Shown in pieces: positions 21,724 to 42,495 of a stretch of DNA of 64,000 nucleotides. The position numbers were made by a program, and so were the translations under genes. The notes beneath the pieces are model-generated. The model had not been told where the DNA came from, searched no databases, and saw only the letters and a list, made by a program, of their open reading frames with translations. How positions within the stretch are numbered: the first letter of the stretch is position 1; each line of letters begins with the position of its first letter. This DNA comes from Streptomyces niger. GTDB lineage: Bacteria > Actinomycetota > Actinomycetes > Streptomycetales > Streptomycetaceae. The stretch lies in assembly GCF_000718305.1 (NCBI RefSeq), contig NZ_JOFQ01000003.1, positions 448,527 through 512,526 on the forward strand. Direction: 5' to 3'.

Positions 21724-22374
21724 GTGGACGGATCGACAGCGAAGGTGACGGACGAGACCGGCGGGCGGCCCGCGCGGACGCGCAAGCACTGCGCCACCGC
21801 CACCCGCGGCGCCCTGATGGAGGCGGCGGCGCTGCGCTTCGGGAGGTACGGCTACGACGGCGCCAGCATCCGGGACATCGCCAAGGACGCCGGGGTGGAC
21901 GCGGCCCTGGTGTACCGCTATTTCGGCTCCAAGGAAGCCCTGTTCGCCGCGGTGTCCATCGACACCGCGATATTCGACCCGCTGCTGCAGGTGCCGCTCG
22001 ACGAGGTCGCGGCCTGGGTGAGCGACTTCGTCGCCAACGGGCCGACGGACGAGGAGGTGCCGCACCCGGTGCTGTCCGTGCTGCGTTCCTCCAGCCGCGA
22101 GGAGGCGGTGGAGCAGTTCCGCGAGGGCGTGACAGAGGTGTTCTCCCGCAACTTCGCCGAGCGCCTGGAGGGCCCGGACGCCGCGCTCCGCGCCGAACTG
22201 CTCGCCGCCTGGCTGCTGGGGACGAGCCTGCTGCGCAAGGCCTTCCGCACCCCGGCGCTGGAGTCCGCATCGGAAGCCGCGCTGCACGGCCACCTCCAGG
22301 CCGGCCTCGCCCGGTTGCTCCAACCCGACCAGCGCTCATGCGGGTGCGGACGCGCCTGCCCCTGCGGGCTCTGA
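21724..22374 (+). CDS. TetR-family regulator, divergent from the ugd-glycosyltransferase-exporter operon
   Basis: 216 residues; GTG at 21724 with AAGAAGG upstream. The HTH domain at ~28-75 reads ATRGALMEAAALRFGRYGYD, then GASIRDIAKDAGVDAALVYR with YFGSKEALFAA. The C-terminal domain resembles the TetR_C group of actinobacterial drug-exporter repressors (DPLLQVPLDEVAAWVSDFVA). It ends in a Cys-rich tail (CGCGRACPCGL), unusual for the family, which could respond to thiol or metal status or simply be a run-on C-terminus. Most likely target: the divergent ugd operon and its own gene. Confidence 0.85.
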   Translation: MDGSTAKVTDETGGRPARTRKHCATATRGALMEAAALRFGRYGYDGASIRDIAKDAGVDAALVYRYFGSKEALFAAVSIDTAIFDPLLQVPLDEVAAWVSDFVANGPTDEEVPHPVLSVLRSSSREEAVEQFREGVTEVFSRNFAERLEGPDAALRAELLAAWLLGTSLLRKAFRTPALESASEAALHGHLQAGLARLLQPDQRSCGCGRACPCGL

Positions 22375-22557: not shown

Positions 22558-23691
22558 GTGAAGTTCTCGATGATCTTCGAGGCCCAGATGGCCGACCCGT
22601 CCCCCGAGCACGAGCGCCAGGTGATCCAGGACTGCGTCGAACAGGCCGTGTACGCCGAGGAGATGGGCTTTGACCGGATCTGGGCGGTCGAGCACCACTC
22701 GCTGACGCAGTACGCCCACATGAGCGCGTCCGAAGTCTTCCTGTCCTGGGTGGCGGCGAAGACCTCCCGCATCCGCATCGGCCACGGCGTGGTCACCATG
22801 CCGTTCGGCTACCAGCACCCGATACGGGTGGCCGAACGCGCCGCCATGCTCGACATCCTCTCCGGCGGCCGCGTCGACATCGGCTCCGGGCGCGGCGCCA
22901 CCAAGCAGGAGATGTCCATGTACGGCGTGCGGCCGGAGGACACCTATCCGCAGATGGAGGAGGCGCTGCGGATCGTGAGCAACGCCTGGCGCGAGGAGAC
23001 CTTCGAGTGGCACGGGTCGATCGACATCGGCCCCGGCGCCGTGCTGCCCCGCCCCGTACAGGCCCCGCACCCACCGCTGTTCATGGCCTGCAGCAAGCAC
23101 GACACGCTCAAGCTCGCCGCCGAACTGGGCATCGGCGCGCTCGTGCTGGGCTTCGCCGGTGCCGACGACATCCGGGAGATGCGCAAGGTCTACGACGAGG
23201 CCATCGCCGTACGGGGCACCGAGCGCTTCGTCTCCACCGAGGTCAACAACCATTTCTCGGCGCTCTGCCCGACGATCGTCCTGGACGACGCCGAGGCGGC
23301 CTACCGCATCGGCACCCGCGGACAGCGGTTCTTCGCCGAATCCATCGCCCACTGGTACGGCAACGGCCCCGAGCCCACCGTGGTGTACGAGGAGGACGAG
23401 GACCACGCCGCGGCGATGGCGCGCCGCCGGGACGAGCTGGTCGCCAAGCTGCACGAGGCCGATATCCCGGCCCGCCCCGCCGACACCGGCACCTACAACG
23501 CCGAGCACGCCTACGGCACCGCCGGGACGGCGATCGATTACGTGGACCAGCTGCGCAGGATCGGCGTCGACGAGGTGATGTGCCTGATCCAGATGGGTAC
23601 CGTGCCGCAGGACGTGTGCATGGAGACCATCCGGCAGTGGGGCGAGACGGTCATCCCGCACTTCCGCGCCCTCGAAGCGGCGGCGGGCTGA
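22558..23691 (+). CDS. Luciferase-like (LLM) flavin-dependent monooxygenase
   Basis: 377 residues from GTG at 22558, with GAGGAGG about 8 bases before it; the frame is open upstream but the promoter lies there. Family signature: KFSMIFEAQMADPSPEHERQ, YAEEMGFDRIWAVEHHSLTQ, RIGHGVVTMPFGYQHPIRVA and LDILSGGRVDIGSGRGATKQ, all typical of bacterial luciferase-type FMN (or F420) oxidoreductases. LLM enzymes include type II Baeyer-Villiger monooxygenases that turn ketones into esters. The stop overlaps the next start (TGATG), so it is coupled to a hydroxysteroid-dehydrogenase-like SDR. The esterase gene with the same promoter motif suggests a ketone-ester-alcohol sequence; this is inference. Confidence 0.85.
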   Translation: MKFSMIFEAQMADPSPEHERQVIQDCVEQAVYAEEMGFDRIWAVEHHSLTQYAHMSASEVFLSWVAAKTSRIRIGHGVVTMPFGYQHPIRVAERAAMLDILSGGRVDIGSGRGATKQEMSMYGVRPEDTYPQMEEALRIVSNAWREETFEWHGSIDIGPGAVLPRPVQAPHPPLFMACSKHDTLKLAAELGIGALVLGFAGADDIREMRKVYDEAIAVRGTERFVSTEVNNHFSALCPTIVLDDAEAAYRIGTRGQRFFAESIAHWYGNGPEPTVVYEEDEDHAAAMARRRDELVAKLHEADIPARPADTGTYNAEHAYGTAGTAIDYVDQLRRIGVDEVMCLIQMGTVPQDVCMETIRQWGETVIPHFRALEAAAG

Positions 23692-24437
23692 TGACCGCAC
23701 GGCTGGCGGGCCGGACCGTCGTCGTCACGGGGGCGGGCCGCGGGCAGGGCGCGGCCGAGGCCCGGCTGTTCGCGGAGCACGGTGCGCGCGTCGTTCTGAC
23801 GGACGTACGGCAGGAGGCGGGCCGGGAGACCGCCGCGCACCTCGGGGACCAGGGGCTGTTCGTCCCGCACGACGTGACCGAGGCGGCCGGCTGGCAGCGG
23901 GTCGTCAGCGCGGCGCTGGACGCCTTCGGACGGATCGACGCGCTGGTGAACAACGCGGCGCTGTGGCGCACCGCGACCGTCGAGGAGGAGACCGAGGCGA
24001 ACCTCCAACGGCTCCTCCAGGTCAACCTGGTCGGCCCGTTCCTCGGCATCCAGGCGGTGGTGCCGGCGATGCGCGCGACCGGCGACGGCGGCTCGATCGT
24101 CAACATCTCCTCCACCGCGGGCCTGGTCGGCATCCAGGGCCACGCCTCCTACGGGGCGACCAAGTTCGGGCTGCGCGGGCTCAGCAAGTCCGCCGCGCTC
24201 GACCTGGCCCGGTACCGCATCCGCGTCAACTCGGTGCACCCCGGCATTGTGGACACCCCGATGGTCGCCGGTGCGCTCGGCACGGACGCCGGCGAGCGGG
24301 CGTGGCCGAACGTGCCGCTGCGCCGCATGGGCCACCCGGAAGAGGTCGCGGAGCTGGTGCTGTACCTGGTGTCGGACGCCTCGGCGTACGTGACCGGCGC
24401 CGAGTTCCCCGTCGACGGCGGGCTCACCGCCCAGTAG
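23691..24437 (+). CDS. SDR oxidoreductase, 3alpha/20beta-hydroxysteroid dehydrogenase-like
   Basis: 248 residues; ATG overlaps the upstream stop (TGATG). Classical SDR: cofactor motif VTGAGRGQGAAEARLFAEHG near the N-terminus, NNAA, catalytic Ser in IVNISSTAGLVG and Tyr/Lys in HASYGATKFGLRG, and a C-terminal YVTGAEFPVDGG. The sequence closely follows the pattern of Streptomyces 3alpha,20beta-hydroxysteroid dehydrogenase (RVVLTDV, GSIVNISSTAGL, SVHPGIVDTPM, AYVTGAEFPVDGG). With the neighbouring kshA/kstD locus a steroid alcohol/ketone substrate is plausible, but SDR substrate calls from sequence are weak. It ends at a strong bidirectional terminator. Confidence 0.82.
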   Translation: MTARLAGRTVVVTGAGRGQGAAEARLFAEHGARVVLTDVRQEAGRETAAHLGDQGLFVPHDVTEAAGWQRVVSAALDAFGRIDALVNNAALWRTATVEEETEANLQRLLQVNLVGPFLGIQAVVPAMRATGDGGSIVNISSTAGLVGIQGHASYGATKFGLRGLSKSAALDLARYRIRVNSVHPGIVDTPMVAGALGTDAGERAWPNVPLRRMGHPEEVAELVLYLVSDASAYVTGAEFPVDGGLTAQ

Positions 24438-24443
24438 GTGCGA

Positions 24444-24485
24444 CGCGGGGAGGCCCGCCGGCTGCGACCGGCGGGCCTCCCCGCG
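24444..24485. terminator. Bidirectional terminator between the SDR and the KstD remnant
   Basis: An 18-base perfect stem, CGCGGGGAGGCCCGCCGG with its exact complement, around a 6-base loop (CTGCGA). It lies between two convergent genes and is the strongest hairpin I found in the window. Confidence 0.85.
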
Positions 24486-24498
24486 TGGTGTACGGGGT

Positions 24499-24837
24499 TC
24501 AGCGCAGGCCCAACGCCCCCGCGATGTCGTTGACCGCGATCCAGCTGAACGTCATCGCCGGTCCGATGGTCGCGCCCGGCCCCGGATAGGTCTCCCCCAT
24601 CACCGCTGCGGAAGCGTTGCCGGTGGCGTACAGGCCCTCGATGACCGAGCCGTCCGCGCGCAGCACGCGGGCCGCCGCGTCGGTGACCGGGCCGCCCTTG
24701 GTGCCGATGTCACCGGGGTGCACGGGGACCGCGTGGAACGGAGCCGCTTCGGCGGTCCACTGCACGGACGTGTGCGCCGGGCTGAACTTCTCGCACCGGA
24801 CCTGGTTGCCGCAGGCCGCGCACTCCACCGGCCGCAC
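24499..24837 (-). pseudogene. kstD: In-frame fusion: CxxC leader joined to the last ~80 residues of 3-ketosteroid delta1-dehydrogenase
   Basis: 112 codons from a GTG one base after the kshA stop. Residues ~32-112 ([57 protein letters not shown]) are the C-terminus of KstD, including the YPGPG motif whose Tyr and Gly take part in catalysis in characterised KstD. The FAD-binding N-terminus and the other catalytic tyrosines are absent: full KstD has about 510-570 residues. Residues 1-30 ([20 protein letters not shown] with a CxxC) do not belong to KstD and look like the start of a different small protein. The frame is intact across the junction, consistent with a deletion joining two genes. Not a functional dehydrogenase. 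Confidence 0.85.
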
Positions 24838-24838
24838 G

Positions 24839-26005
24839 TCAGGCCCCGCTCGCCGTCCGCGTCTCCGCGGCGTCGGGCACAGCTGCGGCGCGGCGCGCGA
24901 GGTTCTCGTCGACCTCGGCGCGCCAGGCCTTGTTGGCGCGCTCGGTGTCGACCTCGAACTCGAAGCGCCGAACCATCTCGTCCTTGACGTCCCCCGCGTC
25001 CACGTAGAACTGCTCGTACCAGCGGCGCAGCTGGTAGACGGGGCCGTCCTCCTCGGTCAGCAGCGGGTTGTCGATGCGGGTCTTGTGCCGCCAGATCTCG
25101 ACGTCCTGCTCGAAGCCGGCCGCCAGTCCCTCGGCGGTGACCCGGGCGGCCTCGGCCGCCTCCGCGTCCGTCATGCCGGGCAGCTTCTTCACGATCGCGC
25201 CGTACTGGAGCAGGAAGCTGTCCGCGTCGATCGGGTAGTGGCAGTTGATCAGCACCATCTCCGTCTCGACGCCCTCGGCCACCGGCGTCCAGAGGTGGTC
25301 GATCATGTAGGAGGGGCCGTAGTAGGAGGCGTCGGAGCGCAGCGGGGCGCTGAGGGTGCCGAGGTCGACGTCCTCGCGCGGGGCGCTCTCCATGTACTGG
25401 GTGGCGACGTGCCCCTCGAAGACGTTCTTGAAGTACGTCGGGAAGGAGTAGTGCACGTAGTAGAAGTGCGCCATGTCCACGATGTTGTCCACGATCTCGC
25501 GGCAGTGGGCGCCCGCCACCCGCAGTATGTGCCAGGTCCAGTCGCTCCACTCGTCGCTGAAGGCGCCGTTGATGCGCGGGATGGTGACGTCGGGCGGCGG
25601 CGGGTTGCCCTCGGGGTCGTACCAGACGAACAGTTGGCGGTTCTCCTCCAGGGTGCGCCAGGCACGGGTACGAGCGCGCGGCGGCACCCGGCGGGCGTAC
25701 GGCACGCCCGCGCACCGGCCGTTGCCGGACCAGCGCCAGTCGTGGAAGGGGCAGGCCACGGCGTCGCCCTTGACCGTGCCGTGCGCGAGATTGCCGCCCA
25801 TGTGGGGGCAGTAGGCGTTGAGCACGTGCAGTGCGCCGTCGTGCTCCCCCTGGAAGACCACCAGCTTGCTGCCGAACGCCTCGATCTCGTGCGGCCGGCC
25901 GCCCTTGAACGTGTCGGCGAGGCCGAGGCAGTGCCAGCCGCGGGCGAAGCGGGCGGGCGGCCGGCCCGCTTCGATGACGCGGACCTCGTCGTGGGGAGCA
26001 GTCAT
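24839..26005 (-). CDS. kshA: 3-ketosteroid 9alpha-monooxygenase, Rieske oxygenase component
   Basis: 388 residues; ATG at 26005 with AGGAGG upstream. It hydroxylates C9 of 3-ketosteroids (4-androstene-dione or the 1,4-diene), which with KstD opens ring B. The Rieske [2Fe-2S] ligands are Cys66, His68, Cys85 and His88 (NAYCPHMGG and ACPFHDWRW). The mononuclear iron site has His180 and His185 in [20 protein letters not shown] plus an Asp in the [17 protein letters not shown] stretch. Length and sequence match mycobacterial/rhodococcal KshA over the whole protein. The KshB reductase is not in the window. It lies downstream of the 310-residue SDR gene and translationally next to the kstD remnant. 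Confidence 0.95.
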
Positions 26006-26135: not shown

Positions 26136-27068
26136 TCACCGCGCCCCGTACACCGGTTGGGGCGGCTCGGCGGCCGCTAGCAGCTTCCGTGCGGCCTCGC
26201 CTGCCTCCGCCGGGGTCCAGCGGGCGCCCTTGTCGGCGGTGGGGCCGGGGCGCCAGCCCTCCATGACGGTGATCCGGCCGCCCTCCGCCTCGAAGACCCG
26301 GCCGCTCACCCCGTCGGAGGCGGTGGAGGCCAGCCAGACGACGAGTGGGGAGACGTTCTCCGGGGCCATCGCGTCGAAGGCGTCCCCGCCCGGCGCGGCC
26401 ATGGTCTCGGCGAAGGTCCGCTCGGTCATGCGGGTGCGGGCGGCCGGCGCGATCGCGTTGACCTGGACGCCGTACCGGGCGAGCTCGGCGGCGGCGACGA
26501 GCGTGAGACCCACGATGCCGGCCTTGGCGGCGGAGTAGTTGCCCTGGCCGACGCTGCCGAGCAGTCCCGCGCCCGAGCTGGTGTTGATCACTCGGGCCTC
26601 GGGCGTGTGGCCGGCCTTGGCCTCCGCGCGCCAGTGCGCCGCCGCGTGCTTCAGCAGCAGGAAGTGACCCTTGAGATGGACGCGCAGTACGTCGTCCCAG
26701 TCGTCCTCGTCGAGGTTGACGAGCATCCGGTCGCGGAGGAAGCCCGCGTTGTTGACCAGCGCGTCCAGCCGGCCGTACGTGCCGAGCGCGGTGCTGATCA
26801 GCGAGGCCGCACCGGCCGCCGTGGCGATGTCGCCGCCGTGCGCGACGGCCTCGCCGCCGGCGGCCCGGATCTCGTCGACGACCTGCTGGGCGGGCCCGGC
26901 GGCGGCCGCGCCGCTGCCGTCCAGGCCGACGCCGAGGTCGTTGACGACCACCTTGGCGCCCTCGGCGGCGAGGGCGAGGGCATGCGCGCGGCCCAGTCCG
27001 CGGCCGGCTCCGGTGACGACGGCGACGCGTTCACTGCACAGTCCGGTCAGTCCGGTCAGTCCGGTCAT
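26136..27068 (-). CDS. SDR oxidoreductase of the HIP (steroid C/D ring) cluster, Rv3548c-like
   Basis: 310 residues from ATG 27068, which overlaps the previous stop (ATGA); GAAGGGA upstream. SDR with VAVVTGAGRGLGRAHALALA and an extended KVVVNDLGVGLDGSGAAAAG loop characteristic of the HSD17B4-like/long actinobacterial SDRs, NNAG, catalytic ARVINTSSGAGLLGSVGQGN and YSAAKAGI. The C-terminal extension (GRITVMEGWRPGPTADKGAR) is typical of this group. Position (second of two SDR genes divergent from echA20-ipdABC) equals Rv3548c in M. tuberculosis. The precise step in ring C/D or side-chain beta-oxidation is not defined. The first codons come from a short repeat encoding TGLTGLTGL. Confidence 0.87.
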   Translation of the reverse strand: MTGLTGLTGLCSERVAVVTGAGRGLGRAHALALAAEGAKVVVNDLGVGLDGSGAAAAGPAQQVVDEIRAAGGEAVAHGGDIATAAGAASLISTALGTYGRLDALVNNAGFLRDRMLVNLDEDDWDDVLRVHLKGHFLLLKHAAAHWRAEAKAGHTPEARVINTSSGAGLLGSVGQGNYSAAKAGIVGLTLVAAAELARYGVQVNAIAPAARTRMTERTFAETMAAPGGDAFDAMAPENVSPLVVWLASTASDGVSGRVFEAEGGRITVMEGWRPGPTADKGARWTPAEAGEAARKLLAAAEPPQPVYGAR

Positions 27069-27874
27069 GGCGTGTGATTCCCTTCCGTGTGGCTGACGGT
27101 GTGGTTGACGGTGGCGGCGGCGAGGAACGCCGGGCGTTCGCCGCCGCCGTGGACGTGCAGGCTCGCGCCGCTGACGTACGCGGCCCGGGCGGAGGCGAGG
27201 AAGGCGCAGGCGTCGCCGACTTCGTCGGGTTCGGCGAGTCTGCCGAGCGGTACGGTGCGGCCGACGGCGGCGAGCCCGGCTTCGTCCCCGTAATGCAGGT
27301 GGGACAGTTCGGTGCGGACCATGCCGAGGGTCACGGTGTTGACGCGTACCTTCGGGGCCCATTCCACGGCCATCGAGCGGGCCAGGTTGTCCAGGCCCGC
27401 CTTGGCGGCTCCGTAGGCCGCCGTGCCCGGTGAGGGACGGGTGCCGCTGACGCTGCCGATCATGATGATCGAGCCGCCCGTGGGCCCCTCGCGCAGCAGG
27501 TCGTAGGCGGCGAGCGAGGCGTTCAGCGGGGCGAGCAGGTTGAGTTCGACGACCCGCGCCGCGTGTCGGCTGCCGGCGTCGGCGAGCATGCGGTACGGAG
27601 TGCCGCCCGCGTTGTTGACCAGCGTGTCCAGCCGCCCGTACTCGTTCCGTACCGCCTCGAAGAACGCGCCGACCGCGTCCGGGTCCCGGAGATCCACGGT
27701 GTGGAAACGGGCGGTGCGTCCCGCCGCTCCGACGGGTCGGTCGGGGGGCCGTCGCGCGCAGGTCACCACCTCGGCCCCGGCTTCGAGCAGGGCGCGCACG
27801 ATGCCCGCGCCGACGCCCCGCGTGCCGCCCGTGACGACGGCGACGTATCCCGACAGATCGATGATCGCTGGCAT
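27065..27874 (-). CDS. SDR oxidoreductase of the HIP cluster, Rv3549c-like
   Basis: 269 residues; ATG at 27874, transcribed away from echA20 across an 87-base promoter that carries a KstR2-like box. SDR motifs: VAVVTGGTRGVGAGIVRALL, NNAGG, SIIMIGSVSGTRPSPGTAAY with GAAKAGLDN, and AYVSGASLHVHGGGE near the C-terminus. The length and the place in the cluster match Rv3549c. Probably a hydroxyacyl-CoA or ring-hydroxyl dehydrogenase in HIP breakdown. The C-terminal ~15 residues are a His/Thr-rich tail (NHTVSHTEGNHTP) formed by a short DNA repeat. Confidence 0.87.
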   Translation of the reverse strand: MPAIIDLSGYVAVVTGGTRGVGAGIVRALLEAGAEVVTCARRPPDRPVGAAGRTARFHTVDLRDPDAVGAFFEAVRNEYGRLDTLVNNAGGTPYRMLADAGSRHAARVVELNLLAPLNASLAAYDLLREGPTGGSIIMIGSVSGTRPSPGTAAYGAAKAGLDNLARSMAVEWAPKVRVNTVTLGMVRTELSHLHYGDEAGLAAVGRTVPLGRLAEPDEVGDACAFLASARAAYVSGASLHVHGGGERPAFLAAATVNHTVSHTEGNHTP

Positions 27875-27961: not shown

Positions 27962-28773
27962 ATGGGTGTCTCCACCTCCTCGCCCGAAGAGGGCATCGCG
28001 GTCGTCACCGTCGACTTCCCACCGGTGAACGCCCTTCCCGTACACGGCTGGTACGACCTGGCCGCCGCCGTCCGCGCGGCGGGCGCGGACCCGAAGGTGC
28101 GCTGCGTCGTCCTCGCCGCCGCCGGACGCGGCTTCAACGCCGGTGTGGACATCAAGGAGATGCAGCGCACGCCCGGGTACGACGCACTGCTCGGCGCCAA
28201 CCGCGGCTGCTCCGAGGCGTTCGCCGCGGTGTACGACTGCGAAGTCCCGGTGATCGCCGCCGTACAGGGCTTCTGCCTGGGCGGCGGCATCGGCCTGGTC
28301 GGCAACGCCGACGCGATCGTGGCGAGCGACGACGCCACGTTCGGCCTGCCGGAGCTGGACCGGGGCGCGCTCGGCGCCGCCACCCACCTCGCCCGGCTGG
28401 TACCGCAACACGTGATGCGGACCCTGTACTACACCTCACGCACCGTCACGGCCGAGGAACTGCACCGGCACGGTTCCGTCTGGCAGGTGGTGCCCCGCGA
28501 CCGACTGACGGACGCAGCAATGGCGTTGGCGGGCGAGATCGCCGCCAAGGACGGCACCCTGCTCCGCCTCGCCAAGGCCGCCATCAACGGCATCGACCCG
28601 GTCGACGTGCGCCGCAGCTACCGCTTCGAGCAGGGCTTCACCTTTGAAGCCAACCTCAGCGGCATCGCCGACCGGGTACGCAACACCTTCGGCACCGGCA
28701 CCAGCACCAGCACCAGCACCAGCACCAGCACCAGCACCAGCACCGGATCCAACACAACGAGGGGGCAGCGGTC

Positions 28774-28777
<4 letters not shown>
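27962..28777 (+). CDS. echA20: EchA20-type enoyl-CoA hydratase family ring hydrolase of the HIP pathway
   Basis: 271 residues; ATG at 27962. Crotonase fold: AVVTVDFPPVNALPVHGWYD, VLAAAGRGFNAGVDIKEMQR (oxyanion loop) and VQGFCLGGGIGLVGNADAIV. In M. tuberculosis EchA20 hydrolytically opens steroid ring D in the HIP pathway, and the gene order echA20-ipdA-ipdB-ipdC is kept here. ATG/TGA overlap couples it to ipdA. Oddity: the end is extended by a (Ser-Thr)7 tail encoded by seven perfect ACCAGC repeats, absent from the ~247-residue mycobacterial protein. Length variation among isolates is likely. Confidence 0.92.
28700..28741. repeat. Seven perfect ACCAGC hexanucleotide repeats inside echA20
   Basis: Seven copies of ACCAGC in frame, encoding alternating Thr/Ser at the EchA20 C-terminus. 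The unit is six bases, so slippage changes tail length by two residues without a frameshift. Confidence 0.95.
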
Positions 28778-29639
<862 letters not shown>

Positions 29640-29643
<4 letters not shown>

Positions 29644-30401
29644 GTGCGGTGAAGGCGACCCGGGCCGAGTACTGCGTGCTGGCCTGCGCCGAGGTCTGGC
29701 GCGGCGCGGGCGAGGTGCTCGCCAGCCCGATGGGCACCGTGCCGTCGATCGGTGCGCGGCTGGCGAAGCTCACCTTCTCCCCCGACCTGCTGCTGACGGA
29801 CGGGGAAGCGCTGCTGATGGCGGACGTACCGGCGGTCGGGGCGCGGTCGGAGGCCACCGAGGGCTGGCTGCCGTACCGGCAGCATCTGGCGCTGGTGGCC
29901 ACGGGGCGGCGGCACGTGATGATGGGCGCGAGCCAGCTGGACCGGTACGGCAACCAGAACATCAGCTGCATCGGCGACTGGGCCCGACCGAAGCGGCAGC
30001 TGCTGGGCGTGCGCGGCGCGCCGGTCAACACCCTCAACAACCCGACGAGTTACTGGGTGCCGCGGCACTCGCGCCGGGTGTTCGTGGCGCGGGTCGACAT
30101 GGTGAGCGGCGTCGGGTACGACCGGGCCGCCGCGGCCGGGCCGGCCGCCACCCGGTACCACCGCATCCCGGAGGTCGTCACCGACCTGGGCGTCTTCGAC
30201 TTCGAGACCCAGGACCACACCCTGCGGCTGCGCTCCTTGCACCCGGGCGTCACGGTCGAGCAGGTCCGCGAGGCCACCGGTTTCCCGCTCGCCCTGACCG
30301 ACCCGGTGCCGTACACCCGCGAGCCCACGCCCGAGGAGCTGCGGCTGATCCGGACCGTCATCGACCCCGGCGGGCTGCGGGACCGGGAGGTCACGGCGTG
30401 A
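29640..30401 (+). CDS. ipdB: IpdB, beta subunit of the steroid ring hydrolase IpdAB
   Basis: 253 residues; ATG overlaps the ipdA stop (ATGA). Matches the beta-subunit half of the family: RAEYCVLACAEVWRGAGEVL, ASPMGTVPSIGARLAKLTFS, LLLTDGEALLMADVPAV, and RRHVMMGASQLDRYGNQNIS, where a typical CoA-transferase would have SENG with the catalytic Glu. Its absence agrees with IpdAB acting as a hydrolase. Length equals the mycobacterial protein (about 250). Coupled to ipdC by GTGA. Confidence 0.94.
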
Positions 30402-31474
30402 GCGACGCACCGGCCGACGTCACCCTGGCAACACCCCTCACCCGGCTGGTCGGCGTGCGGCACCCCCTCGTCCAGACCGGCATGGGCTGGGTGGCGGGCC
30501 CCCGGCTCGTCTCGGCCGCCGCGAACGCGGGCGCACTGGGCATCCTGGCCTCGGCGACCATGACCGTGGAGCAGTTGCGGGCCGCCGTCCGGGAGGTCGC
30601 CGCGCGCACGGACGCACCGTTCGGGGTGAACCTGCGCGCGGACGCGGGCGATGCGGCCGACCGCGTCCGCGTCATCGTCGAGGAGGGCGTACGGGTCGCC
30701 TCCTTCGCGCTCGCGCCCTCCCGGGAACTGATCGCCCGGCTCAAGGACGCCGGGGTGGTCGTCGTCCCGTCCGTCGGCGCCCGGCGGCACGCGGAGAAGG
30801 TCGCCGCCTGGGGCGCCGACGCCGTGATCGTGCAGGGCGGCGAGGGCGGCGGCCACACCGGGGAGGTCGCCACCGGCGTGCTGCTGCCGCAGGTCGTGGA
30901 CGCGGTGGACATCCCGGTGGTGGCGGCCGGCGGGTTCCGCGACGGCCGCGGGCTGGTGGCGGCGCTGGCGTACGGCGCCGCCGGCATCGCCATGGGCACC
31001 CGCTTCCTCCTCACCTCCGACAGCACCGTCCCCGACGCCGTCAAGGCCCGCTACCTCGCCGCGACCGTCAAGGACACCACCGTCACCACCGCCGTCGACG
31101 GCCTCCCCCACCGGATGCTGCGCAGCGAACTGGTCGACGCGCTGGAGCGCTCGGGGCGGGCGGCGGCACTGCTGCGCGCGGTGCGGCACGCCGCCGCCTT
31201 CCAGCGTGAAACCGGCATGAGCTGGCGCCGGATGGTCCGCGACGGCCTGGCCATGAAGCACGGCAAGGACCTGACGTGGAGCCAGTTCCTGCTGGCGGCC
31301 AACACCCCGATGCTGCTCAAGGGCTCGATGGTGGACGGCCGTACGGACCTGGGCGTGATGGCCGCCGGGCAGGTCGCGGGCCTCATCGACGACCTGCCGT
31401 CCTGCGCCGAGCTGGTGGCCCGCGTCATGGCGGAGGCCCACGCCACCCTCCACGCCCTGCCGGCAGCGGACTGA
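30398..31474 (+). CDS. ipdC: IpdC, nitronate monooxygenase-like flavoenzyme of the HIP pathway
   Basis: 358 residues from GTG 30398 (GTGA overlap with ipdB). NPD/2-nitropropane dioxygenase fold with FMN: RHPLVQTGMGWVAGPRLVSA, ANAGALGILASATM, PFGVNLRADAGDAADRVRVI, ADAVIVQGGEGGGHTGEVAT and VVAAGGFRDGRGLVAALAYG, with AAGIAMGTRF. In rhodococci IpdC acts with IpdF in remodelling the C5 hydroxyl of HIP intermediates before ring opening. Length matches Rv3553 (355). Last gene of the echA20 operon. Confidence 0.93.
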   Translation: MSDAPADVTLATPLTRLVGVRHPLVQTGMGWVAGPRLVSAAANAGALGILASATMTVEQLRAAVREVAARTDAPFGVNLRADAGDAADRVRVIVEEGVRVASFALAPSRELIARLKDAGVVVVPSVGARRHAEKVAAWGADAVIVQGGEGGGHTGEVATGVLLPQVVDAVDIPVVAAGGFRDGRGLVAALAYGAAGIAMGTRFLLTSDSTVPDAVKARYLAATVKDTTVTTAVDGLPHRMLRSELVDALERSGRAAALLRAVRHAAAFQRETGMSWRRMVRDGLAMKHGKDLTWSQFLLAANTPMLLKGSMVDGRTDLGVMAAGQVAGLIDDLPSCAELVARVMAEAHATLHALPAAD

Positions 31475-32748: not shown

Positions 32749-33906
32749 TCACAGCCGTTCGATGACCGTCACGTTGGCCTGGCCGCCGCCCTCGCACATC
32801 GTTTGGAGGCCGTACCGGCCGCCGGTGCGCTCCAGCTCGTGGAGGAGAGTGGTCATGAGCTTGGTGCCGGTGGCGCCCAGGGGGTGGCCGAGGGCGATGG
32901 CGCCGCCGTTGACGTTGACCTTCTCGGGGTCGGCGCCGGTCTCCTTCAGCCAGGCCAGCACGACCGGCGCGAACGCCTCGTTGATCTCGACCAGGTCGAT
33001 GTCGTCCATGGTCAGGCCGGTTTTCTTCAGCGCGTGCGCGGTGGCCGGGATGGGCGCCGAGAGCATCCGGATGGGGTCCTCGCCGCGTACGGAGAGGTGG
33101 TGGACGCGGGCCCGCGGGGTCAGGCCGTGTTCGCGTACGGCCCGTTCGGAGGCGAGCAGCATCGCGGCCGCGCCGTCGGAGACCTGCGAGGAGACCGCCG
33201 CGGTGAGCCGCCCGCCCTCGACCACCGGCTTCAGCCCGGCCATCTTCTCCAGGGAGGTGTCCCGGCGCGGGCCCTCGTCGGTCGTGACGTCCCCGTACGG
33301 GACGAGTTCACGGTCGAAGCGGCCTTCGTCGATGGCGTGCAGGGCCCGCCGGTGGGAGCGGAGCGCGAACTCCTCCATCGCCTCCCGCGTGATGCCCCAC
33401 TTCTCGGCGATCAGCTCGGCGCCGTGGAACTGGTTGACCGGCGCGTCGCCGTAGCGGGCCCGCCAGCCCTCGCTGCCCGCGTACGGCCCCTCGGTCAGCC
33501 CGAGCGGTTCGGCGGCCTGCCGGCTGGCGAAGGCGATCGGGATCATCGACATGTTCTGGGTGCCGCCCGCGACGACCAGGTCCTGCGTGCCGGAGAGCAC
33601 GCCCTGCGCGGCGAAATGGATGGCCTGTTGGGAGGAGCCGCACTGCCGGTCGACGGTGACGCCGGGTACCTCTTCGGGGAGCCCGGCGGCCAGCCAGCAC
33701 GTTCGGGCGATGTCACCGGCCTGCGGCCCGACGGTGTCGAGGCAGCCGAAGACGACGTCCTCGACGGCGGCCGGGTCGATGCCGGTGCGCCGCACGAGGG
33801 CCTTGAGCACGTGGGCCCCGAGGTCGGCCGGGTGGACGGCGGCGAGCCCGCCCTTCCGGCGTCCGACGGGCGTGCGGATCGCGTCGATGATGTAGGCCTC
33901 GGCCAT
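32749..33906 (-). CDS. fadA6: FadA6-type acetyl-CoA acyltransferase (thiolase) of the HIP pathway
   Basis: 385 residues; ATG at 33906. Thiolase with all catalytic landmarks: nucleophile Cys in TVDRQCGSSQQAIHFAAQGV, EINEAFAPVVLAW, GGAIALGHPLGATGTKLMTT (His) and TMCEGGGQANVTVIERL (second Cys). It cleaves a beta-ketoacyl-CoA formed after ring opening. The neighbouring gene order fadA6-kstR2-ipdF-fadE30 is that of M. tuberculosis Rv3556c-Rv3560c (with small genes missing). Fourth gene of the fadE30 operon. Confidence 0.92.
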   Translation of the reverse strand: MAEAYIIDAIRTPVGRRKGGLAAVHPADLGAHVLKALVRRTGIDPAAVEDVVFGCLDTVGPQAGDIARTCWLAAGLPEEVPGVTVDRQCGSSQQAIHFAAQGVLSGTQDLVVAGGTQNMSMIPIAFASRQAAEPLGLTEGPYAGSEGWRARYGDAPVNQFHGAELIAEKWGITREAMEEFALRSHRRALHAIDEGRFDRELVPYGDVTTDEGPRRDTSLEKMAGLKPVVEGGRLTAAVSSQVSDGAAAMLLASERAVREHGLTPRARVHHLSVRGEDPIRMLSAPIPATAHALKKTGLTMDDIDLVEINEAFAPVVLAWLKETGADPEKVNVNGGAIALGHPLGATGTKLMTTLLHELERTGGRYGLQTMCEGGGQANVTVIERL

Positions 33907-33945: not shown

Positions 33946-34560
33946 TTACGTGCGTACGGCGACGCCGTCCAGGACCATGGACAGGTACTGGCGGGCGATC
34001 TCCTCCGGGCTGTGCTGTCCGCCCGGTCGGTACCAGCTCACCGCGACCCAGACGGTGTCGCGGATGAAACGGTAGGTCAGCCGGATGTCGAGGTCGGCGC
34101 GGAAGACTCCGGCGGCCACCCCGCGCTCCAGCGTGCCCAGCCACGCCTTCTCGAACTTCACCTGTGAGTCGGCGAGGTAGGCGAAGCGCGGCTGCGCGGC
34201 CAGGGCCCGGGCCTCCTTCTGGTAGATGGCGACCGCTGCGCGGTGCCGGTCGATCTCCCGGAAGGACTCGGTGACGAGGGCCTCGATGGTTTCCCGGGGG
34301 CCGAGGCCGGCGTCCAGCACGGTGTCGTAGCCGGCCCACAGCTCGTCCAGGAAGGTGGCCAGGATCTCGTCCAGCATCGATTCCTTGGAATCGAAGTGGT
34401 AGTAGAGGCTGCCGGCCAGCATGCCGGCCGCGTCCGCGATCTTGCGTACGGTGGTGGCGTTGTAGCCCTGCTCGGCGAACACCTCGGCAGCGGTGTCCAG
34501 CAGCTCGCGGCGGCGCTCGGGTGACGGGCTCACGTTCGACTTCTTCTTGGCGGTTGGCAC
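33946..34560 (-). CDS. kstR2: KstR2, TetR-type repressor of the HIP regulon
   Basis: 204 residues; GTG at 34560. HTH at ~15-60: RRRELLDTAAEVFAEQGYNA, then TTVRKIADAAGMLAGSLYYH with FDSKESMLDEIL. The ligand domain has the KstR2 marks IYQKEARALAAQPRFAYLAD, YRFIRDTVWVAVSWYRPGGQ and EIARQYLSMVLDG, which line up with M. tuberculosis KstR2 nearly end to end. KstR2 is released from DNA by HIP-CoA, the product of FadD3 (encoded at 40828). It sits within the fadE30 operon and so is probably autoregulated through the box at 36550-36563. Confidence 0.94.
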   Translation of the reverse strand: MPTAKKKSNVSPSPERRRELLDTAAEVFAEQGYNATTVRKIADAAGMLAGSLYYHFDSKESMLDEILATFLDELWAGYDTVLDAGLGPRETIEALVTESFREIDRHRAAVAIYQKEARALAAQPRFAYLADSQVKFEKAWLGTLERGVAAGVFRADLDIRLTYRFIRDTVWVAVSWYRPGGQHSPEEIARQYLSMVLDGVAVRT

Positions 34561-34581: not shown

Positions 34582-35367
34582 TCACGCGCGCTGACTGCTG
34601 ACCGGCACGACCTCGCCGGTCATGTAGGACGAGTAGTCGCTGGCCAGGAAGACGATGACGTTGGCGACCTCCCAGGGCTCCGCGTACCGCCCGAACGCCT
34701 CCCGCTCGGTCAGCTCCGCCAGCAGCTCCGGGGTGGTGACCTTCGCCAGGTGCGGGTGCATGGCCAGGCTCGGGGACACGGCGTTGACCCGGACACCGTA
34801 CTCGGCCGCCTCCACCGCGGCGCAACGGGTCAGGGCCATCACACCGGCCTTGGCGGCGGCGTAGTGGGCCTGGCCGCGCTGGGCGCGCCAGCCGACGACC
34901 GAGGCGTTGTTCACGACGACACCGCCGTGTCCGGCTTCCTTCATGCGGCGCAGGGCGGCGCGGGTGCAGCGGAAGGTGCCGTTGAGCGTGACGTCCAGGA
35001 CCCGGTCCCACTGCGCGTCGGTCATGTCGACGAGGTCGGCGGTGCCGCCGAGCCCGGCGTTGTTGACGACGATGTCGAGGCGGCCGTGGCGTTCCGCGGC
35101 GAGGTCGAAGAGGGCTGCGACCCGGTCCTCGTCGGTGACGTCGCAGGGCAGTGCGGCGACCCGGTCGGCGCCGAACTCCGCCGCAAGGGCGGCCTCGGAC
35201 TCCTTGAGCCGGCGGGCGTGCGCGTCGGAGAGGACGACCCGGGCGCCCTCCTCCAGGAGGCGGCGGGCCGTGGCGCCGCCGATGCCCGCGCCCGCCGCGG
35301 CGGTGACGACGGCGGCCCGGCCGGCGAGCAGCGCGTGCCCGGGGACGTACGGGGGCGGCGGGGTCAC
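34582..35367 (-). CDS. ipdF: IpdF, 5-hydroxy-HIP-type short-chain dehydrogenase
   Basis: 261 residues; GTG at 35367 overlaps the fadE30 stop (GTGA). SDR with an altered glycine-rich loop (AAVVTAAAGAGIGGATARRL, AAAGAGIG in place of GxxxGIG), a feature of this SDR branch. NNAG, catalytic NNASVVGWRAQRGQAHYAAA with Tyr-x3-Lys, and SSYMTGEVVPVSSQRA at the end. The length equals Rv3559c (262). In rhodococci it oxidises the C5 hydroxyl of the HIP-CoA intermediate. Confidence 0.92.
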   Translation of the reverse strand: MTPPPPYVPGHALLAGRAAVVTAAAGAGIGGATARRLLEEGARVVLSDAHARRLKESEAALAAEFGADRVAALPCDVTDEDRVAALFDLAAERHGRLDIVVNNAGLGGTADLVDMTDAQWDRVLDVTLNGTFRCTRAALRRMKEAGHGGVVVNNASVVGWRAQRGQAHYAAAKAGVMALTRCAAVEAAEYGVRVNAVSPSLAMHPHLAKVTTPELLAELTEREAFGRYAEPWEVANVIVFLASDYSSYMTGEVVPVSSQRA

Positions 35368-36533
35368 GAGCGTGCCTCCTTCGGCAGGCCGAGGACGCGC
35401 TCGGCGATGACGTTGCGCTGGATCTCGTTGGACCCGGCGTAGATCGTGTCGGCGCGGGAGAAGAGGAACAGCCGCTGCCAGTCGGTGAGGTCGTACGGTT
35501 CCCCGGCGGCCAGCATGCCGTCGGCGCCGCAGACGGCCATGGCGAGTTCGCCGAGCTCGCGGTGCCAGGTGGCCCAGAAGATCTTGCCGATGGAGGCCTC
35601 CGGACCCGGCGCCCCTGCCGCGACCCCGTCGAGCATCCGCAGGGCGTTGCAGCGGATCGTCTCCAGGCCGGTCCAGGCACGGGCGATCCGGTCGCGGATC
35701 AGCGGGTCGGCGGCGGCGCCGTTGGCCTTGGCCAGTTCGGTGACGGCGGTCAGTTCGCGGCGGAAGCCGACCTGCTGGCCGAGGGTGGAGACGCCCCGCT
35801 CGAAGCCGAGGGTGGCCATGGCGACGCGCCAGCCGTCCCCGGGTGCGCCGACGATGTGAGCCGCGTCCGTGCGCGCCTCGTCGAAGAACACCTCGTTGAA
35901 CTCGGAGGTGCCGGTGAGCTGGGTGATGGGTCGGATCTCCACGCCCGGCTGGTCGAGCGGGACCAGCAGGTACGACAGTCCGTGGTGGCGGGTCGAGCCG
36001 GGTTCGGTGCGGGCGACGACGAAGCACCAGTCGGACTCGTGCGCGAGCGAGGTCCAGGTCTTCTGCCCGGTGATCACCCAGTCCCCGCCGTCGTCCCGCA
36101 CGGCCTTGGTGCGGACGCCCGCCAGGTCCGAGCCGGCGTCGGGTTCGCTGTAGCCCTGGCACCACAGTTCCTCGACGGCGACGATCCTCGGGAGGAAGCG
36201 GTCCCGCTGCGCCGGCGTGCCGAAGGCGATGAGGGTGGGGCCGAGCAGCTGCTCGCCGATGTGGTTGACGCGCGCGGGCGCGTCGGCGAGGGCGTATTCC
36301 TCGTGGAAGGCGATCTGCTGGGCGAGGGACGCGCCGCGCCCTCCGTACTCCTCCGGCCAGCCGACGCAGGTCCAGCCCTCGGCCGCCATCCGCCGTTCCC
36401 AGGCGAGGCGTTCGGCGAAGGCCTCGTGTTCCCTCCCCGGGCCGCCGCGGCCGCGCAGGTCCGCGAACTCGCCGCTGAGCCGGGCCCGTAGCCAGGAGCG
36501 GACCTCCTTGCGGAACTCCTCGACGCTGCTCAT
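35364..36533 (-). CDS. fadE30: FadE30-type acyl-CoA dehydrogenase acting on the HIP side chain
   Basis: 389 residues; ATG at 36533, 46 bases from the divergent hydratase gene, with a KstR2-like box in between. ACAD fold: GWPEEYGGRGASLAQQIAFH, YSEPDAGSDLAGVRTKAV, WVITGQKTWTSLAHESDWCF and the C-terminal TIYAGSNEIQRNVIAERVLG. FadE30 of M. tuberculosis dehydrogenates 5-OH-HIP-CoA in the first beta-oxidation of the propionate side chain. First gene of the operon fadE30-ipdF-kstR2-fadA6. Confidence 0.92.
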   Translation of the reverse strand: MSSVEEFRKEVRSWLRARLSGEFADLRGRGGPGREHEAFAERLAWERRMAAEGWTCVGWPEEYGGRGASLAQQIAFHEEYALADAPARVNHIGEQLLGPTLIAFGTPAQRDRFLPRIVAVEELWCQGYSEPDAGSDLAGVRTKAVRDDGGDWVITGQKTWTSLAHESDWCFVVARTEPGSTRHHGLSYLLVPLDQPGVEIRPITQLTGTSEFNEVFFDEARTDAAHIVGAPGDGWRVAMATLGFERGVSTLGQQVGFRRELTAVTELAKANGAAADPLIRDRIARAWTGLETIRCNALRMLDGVAAGAPGPEASIGKIFWATWHRELGELAMAVCGADGMLAAGEPYDLTDWQRLFLFSRADTIYAGSNEIQRNVIAERVLGLPKEARS

Positions 36534-36579: not shown

Positions 36580-37431
36580 ATGCCCGCTGAGCCCGACGAC
36601 GCGCCCGTGCGCTACGCACGGCAGGGACCGGTCGCGACGGTCACCATGAACCGGCCCGATTACCGCAACGCACAGAATTCCGCGATGACTTACGCGCTGG
36701 ACCGCGCCTTCTACCGCGCGGCCGACGACGACGAGGTGAAGGCCGTCGTCCTCGCGGGCGCCGGCGAGCACTTCTCCGCAGGGCACGACATCGGCACCCC
36801 CGAGCGCGACGCGCACCTGCCATTCGACCGCAAGGCCGGCCTGTGGTGGGACCACAGCGACAAGGCGGGCACGGAGAGCCGCTTCGCGCGCGAGTCCGAG
36901 GTGTACCTCGGGATGTGCCGCCGCTGGCGCGAACTGCCCAAGCCGGTCATCGCGAGCGTGCAGGGCGCCTGCGTGGCGGGCGGGTTGATGCTCGCCTGGG
37001 TCTGCGACCTGATCGTGGCCTCCGAGGACGCCTTCTTCGCCGATCCCGTGGTCCGTATGGGCATACCGGGCGTGGAGTACTTCGCCCACCCCTGGGTGAT
37101 GCCGCCCCGCATCGCCAAGGAGTTCCTCTACACCGGAGACCGGATGAGCGCCCGGCGGGCGTACGAGATCGGCATGGTCAACCGGGTCGTGCCACGCGAG
37201 GAACTCGCTGACCGGACAACGGAGTTGGCCCAACGAGTCGCCGAGATGCCGCGCATGGGGCTCGCCCTCACCAAGCGTGCGGTCAACCAGGCCGAGGACC
37301 TCCAGGGCCTGCACACCGGCCTCGACTCCGTCTTCGGCCTGCACCACCTCGCGCACGCGCACAACGCCGAGACCGCACGGGACTCCCTCGGCGGCATGGA
37401 CATCCGGGGCATGAAGGAGGCGTCCTCCTGA
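36580..37431 (+). CDS. Enoyl-CoA hydratase of the HIP cluster
   Basis: 283 residues from the ATG at 36580, with GGGAAGGAG upstream; a TTG further up lies inside the KstR2 box and is less likely. Crotonase fold: VATVTMNRPDYRNAQNSAMT, VVLAGAGEHFSAGHDIGTPE, IASVQGACVAGGLMLAWVCD and MGIPGVEYFAHPW. It carries the ~20-residue insertion after GHDIGTPERDAHLP found in a group of actinobacterial EchA proteins. It heads the operon and would hydrate the enoyl-CoA made by the FadE enzymes. The M. tuberculosis cluster starts directly with fadD3 here, so this gene is an addition. The stop overlaps fadE31 (TGATG). Confidence 0.87.
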   Translation: MPAEPDDAPVRYARQGPVATVTMNRPDYRNAQNSAMTYALDRAFYRAADDDEVKAVVLAGAGEHFSAGHDIGTPERDAHLPFDRKAGLWWDHSDKAGTESRFARESEVYLGMCRRWRELPKPVIASVQGACVAGGLMLAWVCDLIVASEDAFFADPVVRMGIPGVEYFAHPWVMPPRIAKEFLYTGDRMSARRAYEIGMVNRVVPREELADRTTELAQRVAEMPRMGLALTKRAVNQAEDLQGLHTGLDSVFGLHHLAHAHNAETARDSLGGMDIRGMKEASS

Positions 37432-38609
37432 TGAACCTGGACCTCTCCCCCGCGGACGAGGAGTTCCGGGCCGAGGCCCGCGCCTGGCTCGCCGCGCACG
37501 TGCCCCGCGTTCCGCTGCCCTCCCTGGAGACGGCGGAGGGCTTCGCGGCCCACCGGGAATGGGAGCGCGTACTCGCCGACGCCCGCTGGTCGGTGGTCTC
37601 CTGGCCCGAGGAGTACGGCGGCCGGGGCGAGTCCCTGCTGCGCTGGCTGCTCTTCGAGGAGGAGTACTACGCCGCCGGGGCGCCCGGCCGGGTCACCCAG
37701 AACGGCATCAACCTGCTGGCCCCGACGCTCTTCGAACACGGCACCCCGGAACAGCTGGCCCGCGTCCTGCCCGCCATGGCGAGCGGCGCGACCATCTGGG
37801 CCCAGGCGTGGTCCGAGCCGGAGGCCGGGTCGGACCTGGCCTCCCTGCGCTCCACGGCGGTACGCACCGACGGGGGATGGCTGCTCAGCGGGCAGAAGAC
37901 CTGGTCCTCCCGGGCCGCCTTCGCCGACCGGGCCTTCGGCCTCTTCCGCAGCGATCCCGCCGGCGCCGCCGAGGGCAAGCCGCACCGGGGACTGACGTAT
38001 GTGATGTTCCCGCTGGACGCGCCCGGGGTGACCGTGCGCCCCATCGGCCGGCTCGACGGCAAGCCCGCCTTCGCCGAACTCTTCCTGGACGAGGTGTTCG
38101 TCCCGGACGCCGACGTCATCGGGGAGCCCGGGCAGGGCTGGCGGGTGGCGATGAGCACGGCGGGCAACGAGCGCGGGCTGACGCTGCGCAGCCCGGGACG
38201 CTTCCTCGCCGCGGCCGACCGGCTGGTGGCGCTGTGGCGCGAGCGGGCCGACCCCACCGACACCGCGCTCCGCGACCGGGTGGCCGACGCGGTGATCGGC
38301 GCCCGCGCGTACCAGCTCTTCACGTACCGAAACGCGTCCCGCATCGCGGAGGGCGGGGAGCTGGGGGCCGAGTCCAGCCTGAACAAGGTCTTCTGGTCCG
38401 AGTACGACATCGCGCTGCACGAGACGGCGCTCGACCTGCTGGGGCCGGAAGGCGAGCTGGCGGACACGGCCGGGGACGCGCCCGCGCACGGCGGCTGGGC
38501 CGAGGGCTACACCTTCGCCCTCGCCGGACCGGTCTACGCGGGCACCAACGAGATCCAGCGCGACATCATCGCCGAGCGGCTGCTCGGTCTGCCGAAAGGA
38601 CGCCGGTGA
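37431..38609 (+). CDS. fadE31: FadE31-type acyl-CoA dehydrogenase
   Basis: 392 residues; TGATG overlap with the hydratase gene. ACAD motifs: WPEEYGGRGESLLRWLLFEE, QAWSEPEAGSDLASLRSTAV, WLLSGQKTWSSRAAFADRAF and PVYAGTNEIQRDIIAERLLG. The length is that of FadE31. Steroid-degrading actinobacteria use alpha2beta2 acyl-CoA dehydrogenases built from a full and a degenerate subunit; fadE31, fadE32 and fadE33 in a row are consistent with that. It lies in the same order as M. tuberculosis Rv3562. Confidence 0.9.
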   Translation: MNLDLSPADEEFRAEARAWLAAHVPRVPLPSLETAEGFAAHREWERVLADARWSVVSWPEEYGGRGESLLRWLLFEEEYYAAGAPGRVTQNGINLLAPTLFEHGTPEQLARVLPAMASGATIWAQAWSEPEAGSDLASLRSTAVRTDGGWLLSGQKTWSSRAAFADRAFGLFRSDPAGAAEGKPHRGLTYVMFPLDAPGVTVRPIGRLDGKPAFAELFLDEVFVPDADVIGEPGQGWRVAMSTAGNERGLTLRSPGRFLAAADRLVALWRERADPTDTALRDRVADAVIGARAYQLFTYRNASRIAEGGELGAESSLNKVFWSEYDIALHETALDLLGPEGELADTAGDAPAHGGWAEGYTFALAGPVYAGTNEIQRDIIAERLLGLPKGRR

Positions 38610-40827: not shown

Positions 40828-42495
40828 GTGAGCGTGGTCGAGGTCGAGACGGACAACCCCCGAGGGCAGCGGCCGGACCCGAGGCCGGCCGGCACTGTCG
40901 CGCGGCTGGTGGACTGTGCGGCGGACGCGTTCGGCGCGGCCGAGGCGCTGGCCGACGGCGAGGTGCGGTGGAGCTTCACGCGGCTGCGGGACGAGGTGCA
41001 CGCGGCTGCGCGGGCCGCGGTCGCCCACGGTGTGCTGCCCGGCGAGCGGGTGGCCGTCTGGGCGCCGAACAGCCGGCAGTGGATCGTGGCGGCGCTCGGT
41101 GCGGTCGCGGCCGGGGCCGTGCTGGTGCCGGTGAACACCCGTTACAAGGCGGCCGAGGCCGCCGACATCATCCGGCGCAGCGGTGCCCGGCTGCTCTTCA
41201 CCGAGCGGGGCTTCCTCGGTACGGACTACGTGGCGATGCTGCACGGCTCCGGTGCGGACCTCCGCGGGCTGCGGCACACCGTCGTGCTGCGCGAGGGGGC
41301 CGGGGCCACCGCTCCGGCCTACGGGGCGGTGGCCTGGGACGCCTACCTCGCGGCGGGCGCCGCCGTACCGGACGCCGAACGGGCGGCGCGCGCCGCCGCC
41401 GTACGCCCGGAGGACCTCTCCGACATCCTCTACACCTCCGGCACGACGGGCCGGCCCAAGGGCGTGATGACCACGCACGGGCAGACCCTCGGGGTCTACG
41501 AGAGCTGGTCCCGCACCGTGACCCTGCGCCCCGGCGACCGCTATCTGCTGGTCAACCCCTTCTTCCACACCATGGGGTACAAGGCGGGCGTCCTCGCCTG
41601 CCTGTTGCGGGGCGTGACGATGCTGCCCGAGCCGGTCTTCGACACCGGGCGCGTCCTGGACCGGATGGCGGCGGAGCGGGTGAGCGTGCTGCTCGGCCCG
41701 CCGACCGTCTTCCACGGCCTCGTACGGCACCCGGAGCGCGGCCGGTACGACCTGTCGGCGCTCCGCCTCGCCGGTACCGGCGCGGCCATGATCCCCACCA
41801 CGCTGATCGAGGAGATCCGCCGCGAGTTGGGGGCGACGGACGTGTTCACCGCGTACGGACTCAGCGAGTCGACCGGGGTGGTGTCGATCTGCCCCTTGGA
41901 CGCCGACGCCGCGACGGTCGCGCGGACCGTGGGCGTCGCGCTGCCCGGCACCGAGCTGCGGATCGTCGGTCCCGACGGGCGTGTCCTGCCGGCCGGCGAG
42001 CCCGGCGAGGTGGTCACCCGCGGCTTCCATGTCATGGCCGGCTACCTCGACGCCCCCGAGGCCACCGCCCGTGCCGTCGACGCCGACGGCTGGCTGCACA
42101 CCGGCGACGTCGGCGTGCTGGACGCACGCGGCTACCTGACCCTCACCGACCGGCTGAAGGACATGTACGTCGTCGGGGGCTTCAACGTCTACCCGGCGGA
42201 GGTGGAACAGGCCCTCGGCGCTCATCCGGGGATCGCCGAGGTGGCCGTCGTCGGGGCGCCGGACGAGCGGCTGGGCGAGGTCGGCGTCGCCTTCGTCGTC
42301 CCCGATCCCGCACTGCCGCCGCCCACCCCGGAGGCGCTCACGGCCTGGGCCCGCGAGCGGCTGGCCAACTTCAAGGTGCCGCGCCGCTTCCACCTCGTAC
42401 CCGGGCTGCCGCGCAACGCGAGCGGCAAGGTCCTGAAGACCGAACTGCGCCGGGCGGCCCGGGACGGGCCGCGGGACGAGCCCGGTTCCGGCTGA
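40828..42495 (+). CDS. fadD3: FadD3-type HIP-CoA synthetase
   Basis: 555 residues from GTG 40828 (GGGAGGGC upstream). Adenylating acyl-CoA synthetase with all core motifs: P-loop ILYTSGTTGRPKGVMTTHGQ, TAYGLSESTG, GWLHTGDVGVLDARGYLTLT with DRLKDMYVVGGFNVYPAEVE, and the catalytic Lys in NASGKVLKTELRR. FadD3 is known to load HIP onto CoA, making both the substrate of the pathway and the ligand of KstR2. In M. tuberculosis fadD3 is first in this operon; here it is last. ~25 N-terminal residues longer than usual. Confidence 0.92.
   Translation: MSVVEVETDNPRGQRPDPRPAGTVARLVDCAADAFGAAEALADGEVRWSFTRLRDEVHAAARAAVAHGVLPGERVAVWAPNSRQWIVAALGAVAAGAVLVPVNTRYKAAEAADIIRRSGARLLFTERGFLGTDYVAMLHGSGADLRGLRHTVVLREGAGATAPAYGAVAWDAYLAAGAAVPDAERAARAAAVRPEDLSDILYTSGTTGRPKGVMTTHGQTLGVYESWSRTVTLRPGDRYLLVNPFFHTMGYKAGVLACLLRGVTMLPEPVFDTGRVLDRMAAERVSVLLGPPTVFHGLVRHPERGRYDLSALRLAGTGAAMIPTTLIEEIRRELGATDVFTAYGLSESTGVVSICPLDADAATVARTVGVALPGTELRIVGPDGRVLPAGEPGEVVTRGFHVMAGYLDAPEATARAVDADGWLHTGDVGVLDARGYLTLTDRLKDMYVVGGFNVYPAEVEQALGAHPGIAEVAVVGAPDERLGEVGVAFVVPDPALPPPTPEALTAWARERLANFKVPRRFHLVPGLPRNASGKVLKTELRRAARDGPRDEPGSG

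Follow-up and report, generated by a model that had tools for sequence, protein, structure and literature searches.

Results

A chimeric reading frame directly downstream of kshA

We analyzed a 64,000-nucleotide stretch of the Streptomyces niger genome (contig NZ_JOFQ01000003.1, positions 448,527 to 512,526), which is referred to here as the window. Within it, the KSH oxygenase gene kshA forms an intact frame on the reverse strand (24839..26005); its product scores above the cut-offs of the Pfam KshA_C and Rieske families, and residues 7-374 align to the solved KshA structure 4qdc. One base past the TGA stop codon of kshA (24841-24839), a 112-codon open reading frame begins on the same strand with a GTG codon at 24837, and its stop codon ends at 24499. 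Its coordinates and translation agree with the initial annotation, which had described a 112-codon frame at this one-base distance that contains the sequences CAACG and YPGPG; we locate these at residues 6-10 and at residue 84. Between the frame and a convergent SDR gene lies an inverted repeat (24444-24485; 18-base arms and a 6-base loop) that looks like a terminator shared by the two.

The frame is a chimera that joins the start of a small CxxC gene to the end of kstD, and both halves match their parents far beyond chance. Specifically, its first 95 bases (24743..24837, reverse strand) correspond to the first ~32 codons of the small gene (80 codons in the Streptomyces genome G302) and are identical to the gene that follows kshA at 92 of 95 positions in G302 (97%) and at 87 of 94 positions in a second Streptomyces genome, G125 (93%). 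From base 97 onward (24499..24741, reverse strand), the frame contains the last ~80 codons of kstD, with 202 of 222 bases identical in G302 (91%) and 199 of 221 in G125 (90%). The alignments end at base 95 and resume at base 97, so the single base in between (24742, reverse strand) is assignable to neither side. The KstD origin of the C-terminus, as originally proposed, is also evident at the protein level: residues 22-91 align with the C-terminal end of the FAD_binding_2 profile in Pfam (positions 345-414 of 414, E = 2.9e-15), residues 30-105 correspond to positions 472-547 of 547 in the NCBIfam 3-oxosteroid 1-dehydrogenase model (E = 3.8e-35), and residues 28-106 align with the final ~79 residues of KstD chains of solved structure (E ~1e-21). 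As would be expected of a fragment, the score on the 3-oxosteroid 1-dehydrogenase model falls far short of the cut-off set for full-length proteins.

The leader had been taken for unrelated sequence. However, in 19 of the 21 mapped loci (L045 and 20 others; in the remaining two, L174 and L179, kshA lies beyond the fetched stretch) a small gene separates kshA from kshB, and the leader is therefore derived from an operon neighbour. Of the loci fetched, L080 and several others were left out of the analysis. Ninety proteins encoded by this gene were found (66-125 amino acids), among which only the window's own fusion contains a Pfam domain; the G302 copy matched no Pfam family, and the copy in a third genome, G023, matched no Pfam or NCBIfam family. 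Some of their records are named ferredoxin and most hypothetical. Across the 90 rows, five cysteines are near-invariant (positions 6, 9, 15, 35 and 54, G302 numbering), defining a conserved five-cysteine Streptomyces protein encoded between kshA and kshB (L165 7240-7479; L045 7704-7901; P0242-P0330).

The fusion keeps the first three of these cysteines and has lost the other two, and a leucine that is kept in 98% of the 90 rows is an arginine in its leader. On the KstD side, YPGPG probably represents positions 487-491 of KstD1, so that the C-terminal portion that carries the Tyr487/Gly491 motif (numbered as in KstD1, as used in the relevant section of PMC5348764) is present, whereas the FAD-binding N-terminal region, Tyr119 and Tyr318 are absent, the two profile matches being confined to the terminal ranges given above. 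Because the FAD-binding part, two of the four catalytic residues of KstD and two of the five small-protein cysteines are gone, the frame can produce neither parent protein.

A block of ring A/B genes is missing at the joint

Among the genus genomes searched, the KshA proteins closest to that of the window are encoded by G302 (91%) and G125 (88%), and both genomes match the window's gene order on both flanks. On the kstD side, the shared order is a TetR-type regulator (21724..22374, forward; Pfam; 78% in G302, 75% in G125), a luciferase-like monooxygenase (22570..23691, forward; Pfam; 94% and 88%) and the SDR gene that converges on the scar (23691..24437, forward; 88% identical in both). On the other side it is kshA, two SDR genes (26136..27047 and 27065..27874, both reverse) and echA20-, ipdA- and ipdB-like genes. 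Between these flanks, G302 and G125 carry the small gene, kshB, iclR, hsaA, hsaD, hsaC, hsaB and kstD; from kshB through hsaB all of these genes are missing from the window, together with the first ~85% of kstD. The gap that opens at the window's joint measures 7,176 bases in G302 (L165 7335-14510), 8,498 in G125 and 7,160 in G023.

The missing genes were named by comparing the copies in G023 with family models. HsaA and HsaD score above their family cut-offs, while HsaC (384 against 450 bits), HsaB (195 against 230) and KstD (664 against 788; 672 for the G302 protein) fall under theirs with their own family still the best match. The name IclR comes from Pfam, and KshB, which no family model names, was identified by its Fer2, FAD and NAD domains and its position. 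Many relatives have a tandem pair of hsaA-like genes (L167-L173, L178, L180, L181, L184). The initial annotation had proposed a deletion scar marking the loss of kstD, with an intact pairing of the small frame and kstD to be looked for in relatives. The scar is confirmed, and it is larger than claimed: the small gene and kstD are indeed whole in G302 and G125, but kshB, iclR and hsaA, D, C and B stand between them, and kstD was not lost alone.

The ring C/D gene set is retained

As the initial annotation had noted, kshA and the ring C/D genes are still present. The genes adjoining the kshA-side SDR genes encode an echA20-like enoyl-CoA hydratase (27962..28777, forward; above the NF005925 cut-off, named by gene order), ipdA- and ipdB-like proteins (28774..29643 and 29640..30401, forward; Pfam CoA_trans and gene order) and an ipdC-like flavin enzyme (30398..31474, forward; Pfam NMO, FabK-like below cut-off, gene order). 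They are followed on the reverse strand by a fadA6-like thiolase (32749..33906; above the cut-off of NF005865, which carries a general thiolase name), a TetR-type regulator at the place of kstR2 (33946..34560; Pfam, position by gene order only), an ipdF-like SDR (34582..35367; above the cut-off of NF005880, a general SDR name) and an acyl-CoA dehydrogenase that is fadE30-like by order (35364..36533; families below cut-off). Three further acyl-CoA dehydrogenases, fadE31- to fadE33-like by order (37431-38609, 38609-39613 and 39610-40773, forward; families below cut-off), of which the last two are closest or second closest to IpdE2, precede a fadD3-like HIP-CoA ligase (40828..42495, forward) that scores 686 bits against a cut-off of 657 in the FadD3 family NF005801. 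FadD3 alone exceeds the cut-off of a family that bears its name; the remaining ring C/D names were given by order and fold. The dN/dS values of the ipdA-, ipdB- and echA20-like genes are 0.15-0.24.

Elsewhere in the genome, contig C7 encodes a steroid 3-ketoacyl-CoA thiolase that scores above cut-off, as in G302, G125 and G023, and it adjoins a cytochrome P450 gene whose product we take to resemble CYP125; entry into the steroid pathway may thus be kept. Near the start of the window, the translations between 369 and 12226 presumably represent a phage-tail-like contractile system, with a sheath-like protein at 10640-12226.

Orthologs of the main lost genes were not found elsewhere in the genome

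The genome is available as a 108-contig draft assembly with a completeness given as 100. The search for another kstD, which the initial annotation had suggested, found none in this assembly: queries with the KstD model and with the KstD of G023 matched the remnant and, weakly, other flavoproteins. The best HsaC and HsaA matches reached 52 and 211 bits, each against a cut-off of 450. With the G302 KshB as query, no KshB ortholog was found; the best reductase is 38% identical and nothing lies above 38-40% identity. Several reductases with the same domains as KshB remain, and G302 and G125 encode counterparts of the 38%-identical protein in addition to their true KshB. When the block DNA of G023 was compared with the genome (40 of 1301 first-look candidates scored), we recovered both sides of the scar, hsaG-hsaF-like genes on contig C20 (67%) and weaker matches that include stretches of flavin-reductase and iclR genes; no HsaD was found in this search or in the fetched loci. 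The HsaB-type flavin reductases encoded elsewhere are 47-49% identical to HsaB, compared with 64-73% for most relatives' HsaB, and were therefore taken to be general flavin reductases. The C20 meta-cleavage genes (L079) were considered as stand-ins and rejected: their aldolase, the only HsaF-type aldolase in the genome, is 49% identical to the G023 HsaF and is also present in G302 and G125.

The evidence thus comprises a chimeric frame, flanks that match two relatives, and the absence from the assembly of orthologs of the main lost genes. As judged from gene content, the 9,10-seco pathway for rings A and B is incomplete in this genome, lacking KshB, HsaA and HsaC. That the block is actually present in the strain and was dropped by an assembly or library artefact is very improbable; the assembly is a draft, but the joint is located 39 kb into a 512 kb contig, the block ends of relatives showed no long repeat, the stated completeness is 100 and the searches did not recover the missing genes from other contigs.

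Nature and age of the deletion

The simplest origin of the frame would be a single deletion that joined codon ~32 of the small gene to codon ~482 of kstD (of 563 in G302), which would have removed kshB, iclR, hsaA, hsaD, hsaC, hsaB and the first ~85% of kstD. Such a loss is an ordinary kind of event. We infer one event, and several deletion or shuffling steps would look the same. The leftover frame may be translated through coupling to kshA. In G302, nine bases, GGCCGCCGT, occur at both break points, and direct joining via them was rejected, as the product would be one base longer and out of frame. For the window lineage, whose ancestral bases may have differed from those of G302, only ~3 shared bases (GGC) are arguable at the joint. 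No insertion sequence or phage stood out as a cause on inspection of the ORF lists.

The in-frame joint had been read as a sign of recency, but it is expected by chance in one of three cases and provides no clock. For the kstD part, the window branch has a dN/dS of 0.26, and the 1795 usable bootstrap replicates of 2000 span 0.02-1.09. The unconstrained share of this branch is estimated at 15% (median), and its upper bounds of 0.82 (95%) and >1 (97.5%) make an old deletion compatible as well. Four window-only replacements occur in 74 codons of the kstD part, and each of the four residues also occurs at the corresponding position among 119 homologous rows, which are mostly partial proteins. The lack of visible decay faintly suggests a recent loss.

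Distribution of the fusion and of related losses

In 392 genus genomes, KshA was detected in 41 and HsaA in 40 (E <= 1e-120), with both present in 39. KshA occurs without HsaA in the window genome and G220 alone, and HsaA without KshA in G277. The G220 stretch (L215) contains two kshA genes, the small gene, kshB and kstD, and the genome yields no HsaA at E <= 1e-120. The initial annotation had reasoned that recurrence of the same short fusion in relatives, under purifying selection, would make it a real small protein; among the matches listed by E-value for the 392 genomes, the fusion was matched end to end only in the window genome, and among the 120 of 434 protein matches listed, no other covers more than 79% of it. 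That the fusion is a working small protein maintained by selection, perhaps as a redox partner to KshA, is accordingly a most improbable reading. It is in frame, its start is coupled to kshA, its codon use is typical of the genome (GC3 0.94) and the dN/dS of its kstD part (0.31 against G302, 0.16 against G125) falls inside the range of the flanking genes compared with the window (0.07-0.48). However, conservation of the kstD part may predate the deletion, both parents are without essential parts, the highly conserved leucine has become arginine, and the fusion occurs in one genome among the matches listed.

The ring A/B locus of G038 (L048, L216) resembles the window in that ring C/D-like genes are kept and the A/B block is reduced to pieces. 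It retains ipdA/B/C-like and SDR genes with remnants of kshB (residues 54-98) and kstD (residues 515-557), the kshB piece preceding the kstD piece in the scar at L048 6694-7266. It differs in its break points, its pieces do not share a reading frame, neither KshA nor HsaA is detected at E <= 1e-120, and another kstD-like gene is located elsewhere in G038; these differences in break points, frames and gene content indicate an event separate from that in the window. P0009, from other Streptomyces, begins with a frame resembling that in the G038 scar. Short KstD fragments elsewhere in the genus (P0004, P0009 and others) hint at more such losses. An earlier survey states, in the part bearing on this point, that the pathways are absent in 55 of 57 Streptomyces genomes (PMC4810484), compared with the 41 KshA-containing genomes of 392 in the present set. 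Among the matches listed from open-licence papers, none reports the loss of this block in Streptomyces.

Discussion

Our reading of the locus, to which we assign a probability of about 90%, is that one deletion of ~7-8.5 kb left the fusion behind, so that the strain would keep KshA and the ring C/D (HIP) gene set, lose ring B cleavage and ring A opening, and stall at androstenedione. The relevant sections of earlier papers state that KshA needs KshB, both parts being required (PMC6153880, PMC7532642), that the M. neoaurum HGMS2 KshA alone is inactive (PMC7532642), and that loss of both KstD and KSH leads to androstenedione (PMC6153880). As KshB, KstD, HsaA and HsaC are gone, sterols should be converted at most to androstenedione. 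The initial annotation had predicted a build-up of 9-hydroxylated 4-ene products, which is not supported, KshB being lost and the best remaining reductase only 38% identical to it; androstenedione should be the likelier end point unless another reductase serves KshA. We regard it as unlikely that KshA does work with such a partner and that 9-hydroxy-androstenedione accumulates: the KshA frame is intact and several same-domain reductases remain, but the dedicated KshB is lost, the literature cited above describes KshA as inactive without its partner, and relatives that keep KshB also encode counterparts of the remaining reductases, which argues that these have jobs of their own.

It is also improbable that the strain lives on HIP-type leftovers of other degraders, having shed the ring A/B genes while ring C/D genes stay in use. 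This reading draws on the retained ring C/D-like and FadD3 genes, on the dN/dS values of the ipdA-, ipdB- and echA20-like genes, on the kept ipdA/B/C-like genes of G038, where fragments of kshB and kstD are all that remains of the A/B locus, and on the release of intermediates by degraders in soil (the section of PMC8540908 concerned does not include HIP itself among those shown). However, if the deletion is recent, retention of ring C/D genes is uninformative on their use, and G038 has another kstD-like gene elsewhere. Its broader form, in which Streptomyces repeatedly shed ring A/B functions and kept ring C/D functions to become HIP feeders, the window strain being a recent case and G038 an earlier one, is a long shot of the same order.

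In the preferred reading, the loss covers the ring A/B opening block rather than one enzyme, apparently in one step. If the predicted phenotype is right, the window strain and the intact G302/G125 lineage would provide a clean pair for asking whether orphaned ring C/D genes still serve. In G302, G125 and G023 the seco operon runs kshA, small gene, kshB, iclR, hsaA, hsaD, hsaC, hsaB and kstD; the window shares kshA, the flanks (with G302 and G125) and both block ends, which are recognizable in the scar, whereas everything from codon ~32 of the small gene to codon ~482 of kstD is gone. The ring C/D set is much like the M. tuberculosis KstR2 set as given in the gene list of PMC5380842, in a similar but not identical order. 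If the predicted phenotype holds, the strain would be a natural androstenedione-stalling one and a useful comparison for engineered steroid producers. Engineered and industrial steroid strains in which kstD, ksh or both are disabled are blocked at androstenedione or its 9-hydroxy form, a block like that predicted here, as the corresponding section of a review (PMC6153880) and the description of an M. fortuitum five-kstD mutant (PMC10018825) indicate. The window strain differs from them in that its deletion is natural, hsaA-D are also gone and its product is a prediction.
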